Below are positions 25,915 to 61,884 of a stretch of 64,000 nt of DNA, piece by piece (within the stretch, counting starts at the first letter, position 1; each line of letters starts with the position of its first letter). Both the position numbers and the translations under genes were made by a program. The notes beneath the pieces were generated by a model that did no database searches, was not told the DNA's origin, and saw only the letters and a list, made by a program, of their open reading frames with translations. The stretch is from contig SIBQ01000010.1 in the NCBI GenBank assembly GCA_009695095.1, positions 1-64,000 of the forward strand, written 5' to 3'. The DNA comes from Lacunisphaera sp. GTDB lineage: Bacteria > Verrucomicrobiota > Verrucomicrobiia > Opitutales > Opitutaceae.

Positions 25915-26036
25915 GCCCAGGAGCCTGGCAAGATCATCACCACCTTCACGCTAAGGGGAATGAGCTGGTTCGCGCCCGAAGTCGGACGCGTTTCTTTTTC
26001 CTTCCACCTCCATGCTCCTTACTCCTTTGCCTCGGT

Positions 26037-26134
26037 TTCGGGACGCGGTAGCGCCCGAGAACCGAGGACAAACACCGGGCCCGCAGCAGCGGACAACGGT
26101 GTCGCTCCATGCTTGCCCTGAGCTGATCGAATGG
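26037..26134. repeat. Hairpin repeat with GGACAAACACCGGGC word and CCTGAGC..TCGAATGG word
   Basis: GGACAAACACCGGGCCCGCA (26066-26085) belongs to the family whose two other copies are at 54054-54087 and, in frame, at 55675-55708. It is preceded by a palindrome around GCGCCCGAGAACCGAGG. CCTGAGCTGATCGAATGG (26117-26134) is a second repeat word, shared with 28880-28897 and with the signal-peptide region at 47493-47510. All lie in the leader of the helicase gene. Confidence 0.6.
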
Positions 26135-53338: not shown

Positions 53339-53594
53339 GGTTTCACCGTGTCAAAGATATGCCTGCATGAACCGGGACCTTCGGAACTGAAGGGCCCGCT
53401 GTCCAGCCGTGCATGTCTCGCTGCTCATTCATCATTGCCGTCATAATAACTCCACGTAGCGCTCCAAGTCTATCATCATTCCACGCAGCTCGCACTTGGC
53501 TTCCGCCTGCCTGCGAGCAGGCTTTCCCCGTCATCCGCCAATTGAACCTGCGATGGAATCAGTGAAGGGGCAGTTTTACCGGATGACCTCAAGC

Positions 53595-53945
53595 ATCATC
53601 GCCCGCCATCAAGACGATCACCTCAAGAACATCGCGTTCCTCATGGGCAAAACCGGCTGTTGGTTCCTGCCCCCGGACTTCGATGTGAACTACCGGTGCA
53701 ACCCTAGCGGCGCGTGGACCGACCGTCACCAGATGACCTTGAACGGTAAACGTGACGGATTCACGCAGGCTGACTTTCTCGCCTGTGCAAAAAACGTCAT
53801 GATGAAACGCGGCCGCGCCGACACAATTCTCGAGGAAGTTCGTTCGGCAGTAACACGATGGCCGAACCACGCCGAACAGGCGCACGTGACGGAATCCTGG
53901 CGCCGGCAAATCCAGGAAAGCCTCCGACTGTCCCTGCCGAAGGGG
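53595..53945 (+). pseudogene. HipA kinase C-terminal fragment
   Basis: In frame are SSIIARHQDDHLKNIAFLMG, KTGCWFLPPDFDVNYRCNPS, GAWTDRHQMTLNGKRDGFTQ and ADFLACAKNVMMKRGRADTI, which match the C-terminal lobe of HipA-family Ser/Thr kinase toxins (N-x-D-D-H-x-K-N active-site loop, HQM-LNGKRD). The N-terminal two-thirds and any hipB gene are absent. Upstream frame to 53496 is not HipA-like. Codons are slightly less GC-rich than the neighbours. It is an inactive relic. Confidence 0.75.
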
Positions 53946-54030
53946 TCGTCAGGGAAAATCACCCACCCCCGTAACCCATGGCGTGTCCTGATCTGCACCC
54001 TCGCCGGGTTGCAAAGCGCAGGTTGACGGT

Positions 54031-54090
54031 TTTGTTTGCCGGGCGACCGGCCCGGACAAACACCGGGCTGGCAGCAGCCAGCAACGGTGC
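54031..54090 (+). repeat. GGACAAACACCGGGC repeat, intergenic copy before the cobW-like gene
   Basis: GGACAAACACCGGGCTGGCA followed by GCAGCCAGCAACGG (54054-54087) is identical over 34 nt to 55675-55708, which is inside the WD40 coding sequence. It is preceded by TTTGTTTGCCGGGC (54031-54044), which can pair with GCCCGGACAAACA, giving a hairpin in the leader of the GTPase gene. Confidence 0.8.
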
Positions 54091-55504: not shown

Positions 55505-55583
55505 CCACAAAGGCACGAAGACTCAAAGAATCTGGCTCGGCACAGATTTGTTTTCATCTCTGTGCCTTTGTGCCTCTTTGGTT
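55504..55583. repeat. ACCACAAAGGCACGAAG-type imperfect inverted repeat
   Basis: The left arm ACCACAAAGGCACGAAGACT (55504-55523) opposes the right arm TGTGCCTTTGTGCCTCTTTG + GTT (55561-55583). It fills the gap between the cobW-like and WD40 genes. Confidence 0.65.
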
Positions 55584-55591
55584 CAAATAAA

Positions 55592-56725
55592 ATGAATTTC
55601 ACCAAGCACTGGGCCGCGACGCTCGACGACTACGCCATTGACCTCGCATGGTCGCCTTTGCCTGACGACGGCGAGGACAAACACCGGGCTGGCAGCAGCC
55701 AGCAACGGCGCGACGGCACGCTTCTCGCTGTCGCCTCCGCCGCGGGCGGCATCACGCTCTACGACGCCGCCACCGGGGCGGTGCAGCACGCGCTCGCGGG
55801 CCACGCGAACGGCGCGAACTGTCTGGCGTGGATGCCAGCGCATTTGAGAACAGAAGACGGAGGACGGAAGACCGACATCCTTGCTACAGGAGGTCAGGAT
55901 GGCTGTGTGCGCTTTTGGGATGCTGCCGCCGGTCAACAAACGGCCGAAGCCAAACTCGGTTCTGCGTGGGTCGAGCATCTGGCCTGGCGGCCAGTTCAGA
56001 GGACAGAAGACGGAGGACTGAAAGCAGAAGCTCTCTTGTTCGCAGCGGCGGGCAAAAAACTTTTCGTCCTCCGGTCCGATGGTACGCTTGCCCATACTTT
56101 TCCCGATGCACCGAAGACGATCTCCGCGCTGGCGATCTCTCCGCCATCTGTCCTCCGTCCTCTGCCCTCTGTGATCGCCGCCGCCTACTTCGGCGGCGTG
56201 TGTCTCTGGGATGCCACGACTTTCGCGGCGCAAAAAGAGCTGCCTTACGGCAACGCCATCCTTGCGCTCACCTCTTCGCCGGATGGCCGCTGGCTCGTCG
56301 CGGGCTGCCACGACAACTCCGTCCACCTCTGGGTGCCCGCCGAGGACCTCGAGCTGCACATGAGCGGCTACGAGACGCGCCTCAAAGAGCTCTCGTTCAG
56401 CCATGACTCGAAGTGGCTGGCCACCGGCGGCGGCAAGGACGTCTGCGTTTGGGACTGCGCCGGAGCCGGCCCCGAGGGCCGTGAGCCGCTGCAGCTCCCG
56501 CAGACCGCCCGCACCACGGCGGTGGCGTTTCAGAACCAGCACAGCCTGCTCGCGACCGGCGACGCCGGCGGTACGTTCACGCTCTGGGCCCCGACCCGAA
56601 AGAACCCGATGGTCGCCGAGGTCAAGATGCCGTCCGTCGCGACGAAATTCGCCTGGAAGCCTGACGACTCGCTGCTCGCTGTCGGAACTGAGAAGGGCGT
56701 GGTTTACGTGTTCAAGACGGCCTGA
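55592..56725 (+). CDS. WD40-repeat protein with repeat-derived insertions
   Basis: This 377-aa cytoplasmic beta-propeller shows six or seven WD-type blades (for example DGTLLAVASAAGGITLYDAA, ATGGQDGCVRFWDA, DGRWLVAGCHDNSVHLWVPA, WLATGGGKDVCVWDC). It is paired with the cobW-like GTPase gene upstream and is likely a protein-binding scaffold for it. Four stretches do not look like propeller sequence: [12 protein letters not shown] near residue 28, RTEDGGRKTD near 87, QRTEDGGLKAEA near 137, and PPSVLRPLPSVI near 187. All four match non-coding repeat words present elsewhere in the window. They sit in loops between strands and keep the frame. Confidence 0.85.
   Translation: MNFTKHWAATLDDYAIDLAWSPLPDDGEDKHRAGSSQQRRDGTLLAVASAAGGITLYDAATGAVQHALAGHANGANCLAWMPAHLRTEDGGRKTDILATGGQDGCVRFWDAAAGQQTAEAKLGSAWVEHLAWRPVQRTEDGGLKAEALLFAAAGKKLFVLRSDGTLAHTFPDAPKTISALAISPPSVLRPLPSVIAAAYFGGVCLWDATTFAAQKELPYGNAILALTSSPDGRWLVAGCHDNSVHLWVPAEDLELHMSGYETRLKELSFSHDSKWLATGGGKDVCVWDCAGAGPEGREPLQLPQTARTTAVAFQNQHSLLATGDAGGTFTLWAPTRKNPMVAEVKMPSVATKFAWKPDDSLLAVGTEKGVVYVFKTA
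55675..55708 (+). repeat. GGACAAACACCGGGC repeat translated in the WD40 gene
   Basis: These 34 nt are identical to the intergenic copy at 54054-54087 and are partly shared with 26066-26099. The copy lies in frame between the first two strands of the propeller. Confidence 0.85.
55850..56164 (+). repeat. ACAGAAGACGGAGGAC words translated in the WD40 gene (two direct, one inverted)
   Basis: ACAGAAGACGGAGGAC is present at 55850-55865 and 56003-56018 (identical 16-mers). Its near reverse complement GTCCTCCGTCCTCTG is at 56150-56164 (one mismatch). The longer form CTGTCCTCCGTCCTCTG (56148-56164) matches 1123-1139 in the OppA signal peptide at 16 of 17 positions. Confidence 0.8.
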
Positions 56726-61624: not shown

Positions 61625-61712
61625 TGTCATACTGAACGAAGTGAAGTATCCACGGCATCGATCATGATATCACCGCCGAATGCATGGATTCTTCGCTACG
61701 CTCAGAATGACA
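61625..61712. repeat. TGTCATACTGAACGAAGTGAAG inverted-repeat element
   Basis: TGTCATACTGAACGAAGTGA + AGTATCCA (61625-61652) pairs with TGGATTCTTCGCTACGCTCA + GAATGACA (61685-61712) as an imperfect 28-bp stem. The word family also gives the single arm at 2721-2752. It follows the oxygenase gene. The remaining DNA to 61884 (about 170 bp) has no feature that I can see. Confidence 0.75.
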
Positions 61713-61884
61713 GGAAGTGCGCGTTGGTTGGATTGAAGACACTCCTTGGCTGAATGGCCCAGGGCCGGGCGGGTGAGGTGAAACCCGGCTGCGTCAGTTT
61801 TAATTACCACCGGACATGAGCGACCAGGAGGCACCTGCAATCATTTGGGGTTTACCGCGCCTCTGTCTGGAAATGCACCCGCCG

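Follow-up and report, generated by a model that had tools for sequence, protein, structure and literature searches.

The DNA analysed here, a stretch of 64,000 nucleotides referred to as the window, belongs to a metagenome-assembled genome of 41 contigs and 91.5% completeness whose nearest named relatives are Opitutaceae (Verrucomicrobiota), a family of soil and water bacteria. It carries a gene for a WD40 protein, for which AlphaFold2 yields a model with a mean pLDDT of 90.1 and eight-bladed propellers among the best PDB fold matches. A first-pass annotation had described four intergenic-type repeats, translated in frame within this gene. All four segments are indeed in frame in the WD40 ORF, and they fall into two unrelated classes: one is a copy of an element that we term H, and the other three are heptameric stretches. 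The features discussed below are as follows.

26026..26101, + strand: intergenic H of the long hairpin-1 type (61.8 bits), ahead of a helicase gene that is UvrD/Rep-like as judged by eye from its sequence
54035..54089, + strand: intergenic H, 24 nt upstream of the start of a CobW-type GTPase gene (covariance-model score 68.7 bits)
55592..56725, + strand: WD40 gene, eight-bladed beta-propeller, 377 aa (Pfam WD40 PF00400, E 7.7e-26)
55657..55710, + strand: H within the WD40 gene, 54 nt, in frame, blade 1, encoding 18 aa (65.2 bits)
55844..55873, + strand: turn of blade 2, stretch of heptameric repeat including the first copy of the 16-mer, after core column 66
55996..56030, + strand: turn of blade 3, stretch of heptameric repeat including the second copy of the 16-mer, after core column 107 (edges approximate)
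56144..56173, + strand: turn of blade 4, inverted heptameric repeat including a copy of the 16-mer that carries 2 mismatches, after core column 147 (edges approximate)

The WD40 gene had no match in a plasmid collection. Its 5' leader (55505-55590) is a foldback of another repeat-like motif (CCACAAAGGCACGAAGACTCAAAGA ... TCTGTGCCTTTGTGCCTCTTTGGT), and a further, TGTCATTTTGAGCGAAGCGAAGAATC-like repeat forms an inverted pair at 2715-2752 and 61684-61721 of the window (89% complementary). Just upstream of the intergenic H at 54035, ORF 53553-54026 encodes the C-terminal part only of a HipA-like protein (PF07804), possibly the truncated remnant of a toxin-antitoxin system.

Structure and copies of the H element

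The 34-nt word reported as identical in the GTPase leader (54054-54087) and in the WD40 coding sequence (55675-55708) is confirmed, and alignment of copies places it at the core of H, an element of 54-76 nt with two hairpins. A third copy of the word, equivalent in structure, is found at 26067-26101, with 0 expected from 100 shuffles. H has the layout TTTGCC-(hairpin 1)-GGACAAAC-(hairpin 2)-CGGTG, in which hairpin 1 is variable in both stem and length, and hairpin 2 follows the pattern CACCG-g-NNNNNN-AGCA-NNNNNN-aa-CGGTG, with a conserved asymmetric internal loop and an AGCA loop. A longer form (locus L108) contains extra hairpins nested within hairpin 2. Both words singled out by the first-pass annotation recur elsewhere in the genome of the window, the H core in 15 places at ≤3 mismatches (reversed controls, 0) and the 16-mer of the heptameric stretches in 13 places at ≤2 mismatches (reversed-pattern control, 1). 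A covariance model, built from 15 of the 22 own-genome copies, detects 22 copies of H in 2.14 Mb at E<1e-4; whole-genome work on H used the stretches around matches. One match of the model within nuoM (L109) was rejected as a chance hit, the site resembling ordinary NuoM sequence. No Rfam family matched at H up to E 10.

The stem of hairpin 2 covaries. Pairing is retained in 92.4% of cells, a percentage that leans towards structure, as the structure was derived from the same sequences, and double changes occur at 7 of the 11 pairs. Doubly changed cells number 57 versus 12.9 in shuffles, related copies inflating this count, and the covariation score is 0.400, compared with 0.115 for shuffled alignments and at most 0.072 for slid controls. 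Among the deviations from canonical pairing, 23 A-C mismatches versus 9 G-U pairs hint at the complementary strand or single-stranded DNA as the folded form, a weak hint, since dropping one pair leaves 14 versus 6. All six reading frames are open in 26 of 46 elements, compared with 13% of shuffled ones, and H is unusually tolerable because most copies are free of stop codons in any frame.

Insertions at recurrent turns of the WD40 propeller

The H insertion in the WD40 gene comprises exactly 54 nt and sits between tcgcc and cgacggc. Orthologue alignment reveals clean presence or absence: the insertion is common to the genome of the window (G000), G093 and G037, and its 18 residues are cleanly missing from G071, G113, G130 and G147, other orthologues likewise lacking the segments. 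No target duplication was detected at the one site compared, where the empty allele differs by a net 54 nt. For the H insert, the placement between propeller strands proposed from the sequence is borne out by the AlphaFold2 model, in which the H-derived residues 26-40 have pLDDT values below 50 and lie between strands 15-20 and 44-49, and probably form a disordered loop. In a tree of six WD40 proteins, G000, G037, G093 and G071 group together, and the insertion-free G071 is sister to the insertion-bearing G093; this implies a single gain followed by a clean loss, or else repeated gain. The inserts of the three species differ at only 3-6 of 54 bases, as opposed to 37-46% at the fourfold sites of this gene, so that a single old neutral insertion is insufficient by itself and conversion, independent insertion or constraint must be added. 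In G027, another turn of the WD40 protein contains an insert resembling H.

The remaining three segments share the 16-mer ACAGAAGACGGAGGAC, which had been described as occurring twice directly and once inverted. The two direct copies are exact (55850 and 56003), but the inverted one (56150-56165) has 2 mismatches; the number of matches within the gene was reached by 0 of 100 shuffles. The 16-mer is a stretch of a repeat with a 7-base period that is unrelated to H. Across 94 distinct orthologues, 136 insertions of at least 6 aa were identified; 134 of them occupy the W-x-P^DG turn in one of blades 1-4 (following core columns 20-24, 66, 107 and 147-149) and two lie elsewhere, with none at the equivalent turn of blades 5-8 in these 94 proteins. 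We pooled 86 inserts of at least 10 aa from 56 orthologues for a test of periodicity, and their DNA identity at lags 7, 14 and 21 is 0.473, 0.464 and 0.435 versus 0.275, 0.278 and 0.322 in stretches taken from the core of those genes, the highest control at lag 7 being 0.291. Many WD40 inserts are therefore heptameric arrays. Their units fall into several families, and a spacer often separates a direct arm from an inverted one. The remaining inserts represent further repeat families or none that was recognised. In G050, a unit word taken from the insert of its own WD40 gene occurs 267 times in the genome, compared with once for the control. No clean array of 6-, 7- or 8-nt units was detected in the window at a strict threshold, so the arrays of this particular gene are short and degenerate, and the 7-base period rests on the pooled orthologues. 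Stop codons in the heptamers (in frame 0 TGA and 5 TGG; out of frame 22 TGA and 11 TGG; a small sample) carry no evidential weight because in-frame TGA is excluded by construction. The heptamers and H are two unrelated contributors to the WD40 inserts.

H in other proteins and genomes

Seven own-genome copies of H lie in frame in proteins, namely the WD40 protein, SufD, Mfd, a DinG-like helicase, a GT2 glycosyltransferase, a DUF2339 protein and a YgjP peptidase, the names Mfd and DinG-like being inferred from domains. When compared with nine relatives, Mfd, the DinG-like helicase, GT2 and YgjP have orthologues without the insertion in most of them. SufD does not show a clean insertion, its loop being also altered, and DUF2339 is too variable across the nine relatives for a presence or absence call. 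At H-bearing loops, relatives often contain other repeat-derived peptides, such as SQPSTLNPQ in SufD of G093. The H copy in ygjP is antisense to the gene and common to G000, G071 and G037; its stem in G037 (GATTCC/GGAATC) differs from that in G000 and G071 by compensated changes, indicating that the stem was maintained within a coding region or replaced by another copy. Copies of H were also observed in apparent linker regions of the dihydrolipoamide acyltransferase (E2) of G093 (L358) and G037 (L386), around position 2001, followed directly in G093 by a heptamer-derived peptide (TQKTEAREQKTEAK).

H is present in 12 of 150 Opitutaceae genomes, with 2-42 copies in each of seven sampled genomes of the genus, 19 and 21 copies in the two genomes of genus g28, and one or two in three further genera. 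Outside the family, none was detected in a class-wide sample of 384 genomes under stricter filters. In one region of g28 (L335, G027:C253:5500-11500), H is located at 886, 4210 and 4574, each time in a short leader preceding a gene. G147 (L278/L288, G147:C81) harbors identical tandem pairs of H at 22-62 and 90-130, near contig ends, which suggests that a tandem array of H breaks this assembly. Two viral contigs also contain H, and in one of them (L330, IMGVR_UViG_3300031825_000402) it is positioned at 1956-1991 between genes for a MuA-like transposase and a MuB-like ATPase, identities that derive from a reading of the ORFs. A Mu-like phage is a possible vehicle for the transfer of H between hosts.

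Orientation was analyzed for 106 copies from ten genomes with a rough codon-based gene finder. Within genes, this finder alone yields 34 sense copies and 1 antisense copy; it missed the WD40 gene (sense) and ygjP of G000 (antisense), and with both added by hand the ratio is 35 to 2 (binomial p 1e-8, a value that is too small because some copies are orthologous and not independent, with the two antisense copies representing one event). Sense copies make use of all three frames (15/11/8), and a particular peptide is hence not the target of selection. Between tandem genes, 33 copies are sense versus 10 antisense (p 6e-4). A start codon follows many of the intergenic copies at a distance of 12-60 nt. 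In G071, a complete genome, the orientation of H matches the chromosome half in 24 of 27 listed copies (Fisher p 7e-5), with halves placed by the GC skew of sampled stretches; non-adjacent genes of G071 match their half weakly (27 of 45). A search for rRNA genes as indicators of replication direction gave no match in either genome. The copy in ygjP follows the chromosome half against its gene, and a copy at 862015 does the opposite. Transcription and replication are confounded as causes of H orientation in G071.

Origin of the insertions and known repeat systems

The best explanation, which we consider likely, is that two classes of dispersed non-coding repeats, H and heptameric arrays, have invaded the WD40 gene. 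H would be a small palindromic element made up of two hairpins in succession, non-autonomous and actively mobile, which spreads round the chromosome by means of a factor supplied in trans, and the heptameric arrays may arise or expand by slippage, template switching or copying. Insertions would be kept in genes only where their net length preserves the frame and the peptide lands in a tolerant surface turn, where it may well be neutral. In proteins that are presumably produced, the insertions of H-bearing genes should be translated as floppy surface loops. Counting against the invasion are the failure to find a mobility enzyme, the low divergence of the WD40 insert among the three species and the altered loop of SufD.

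A specific version of this invasion, which we put forward tentatively, has H moving as single-stranded DNA on the lagging-strand template, in an HUH- or integron-like manner comparable to IS200/IS605 or to REP elements with TnpA-REP. Folded hairpins with a conserved bulge and loop, the lack of target duplication at the WD40 site, the agreement of H with the chromosome half in G071, which non-adjacent genes follow weakly, and the ygjP copy that is antisense to its gene yet agrees with its half are consistent with such a route. It is weakened by the placement of the G071 halves from the GC skew of sampled stretches only, by the confounding with transcription, which is a good predictor for intragenic copies, and by the lack of an associated Y1 transposase. 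No mobility enzyme for H was found in searches for PF01797 in the window's genome and at the Y1 loci of relatives: this Y1 transposase family is absent from the former (91.5% complete), and H occurs within 1.5 kb of 1 of 30 Y1 loci in the latter, leaving a Y1 transposase as partner of H unsupported. More speculatively, H could represent a new class of structured mobile elements that favors the sense strand of transcribed regions, employs machinery other than a REP transposase and at times passes from host to host, for instance on a Mu-like phage.

Alternatively, H might be a transcribed, cis-acting RNA element under selection for a role as leader or in translation or stability, with intragenic copies as by-products. 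The sense bias inside genes and between tandem genes, the many copies shortly before start codons and the covarying stem would fit, but the genes share no evident theme, orthologues in close relatives do without H, and the excess of A-C over G-U in hairpin 2, albeit a weak test, disfavors a folded sense RNA; we regard this reading as unlikely. It is highly improbable that the segments are ordinary fast-evolving, low-complexity loops sharing words by coincidence or amino-acid convergence: these tolerant turns do vary in length among many orthologues, but DNA identity to intergenic copies, the use of three frames, one antisense case, the 7-base period and match counts that shuffles never reach all contradict this. 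An assembly or binning artefact, conceivable for a window from a 41-contig genome of 91.5% completeness, is scarcely credible given the same WD40 insertion in the independently assembled G093 and G037 and the presence of H, including in-frame insertions, in the single-contig genome G071.

Invasion by H and heptameric arrays would document, outside Rickettsia, the repeated entry of structured repeats of several unrelated families into proteins. With 94 orthologues recording many insertions at four equivalent turns, the hot-spot gene makes an old question directly testable, namely whether such insertions are merely tolerated or are a source of new protein segments, and the orientation bias together with stem covariation offers clues to a mobility or RNA mechanism.

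Rickettsia palindromic elements (RPEs) are dispersed palindromes of ~150 bp found in frame in proteins (reviewed in PMC10969869). The first-pass annotation had likened the WD40 insertions to them, and this holds for the behavior of H but not for the 16-mer, which is heptameric and not a palindromic element of the same family. The annotation had named two outcomes that would speak against its reading, orthologues with these segments in unrelated codons and words confined to one place in the genome, and neither was observed. Like RPEs, H is palindromic and dispersed between genes as well as in frame inside unrelated protein genes, at exposed loops; it differs from RPEs, as these are described, in phylum, in its length of 54-76 nt, in its two successive hairpins and in its use of three sense frames. 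Miniature inverted-repeat elements (MITEs), which are small and non-autonomous, can form in-frame fusions (PMC10969869), and H resembles them in these respects; unlike MITEs, it is not enclosed as a whole by terminal inverted repeats, the ends TTTGCC...CGGTG lacking complementarity, and its WD40 copy is not flanked by a target duplication. Heptameric repeats are known as the cyanobacterial heptanucleotide and as GGGAATC of Xanthomonas and Nostoc (PMC4692102). The WD40 heptamers share with these the arrays of 7-nt units and the many copies per genome, but have other unit sequences, stand in frame at a recurrent hot spot and are often arranged as a direct arm, spacer and inverted arm.

Intragenic REPs occur in many bacteria, and the largest number of GTAG REPs within genes is reported for Opitutus terrae (Di Nocera et al. 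2013, PMC3733652). In-frame palindromic repeats thus have a precedent in this part of the tree. H shares with GTAG/CGTC REPs the form of a short hairpin repeat, and many REPs of O. terrae, a relative, are likewise intragenic and in frame. H differs in having no GTAG/CGTC at the hairpin foot (among 46 elements, GTAG occurs in 1, CTAC in 2 and CGTC in 5; GACG, present in 18, lies by eye within the variable hairpin 1), no regular Y1 link, and an asymmetric internal loop with an AGCA loop. A search of the open-licence literature yielded no account of H, of its orientation bias or of translated heptamers at a recurrent hot spot. Collectively, H is real, RPE-like in its behavior and not a REP as tested, and the element families and the multi-family hot-spot gene appear to be new instances of a generally known phenomenon.
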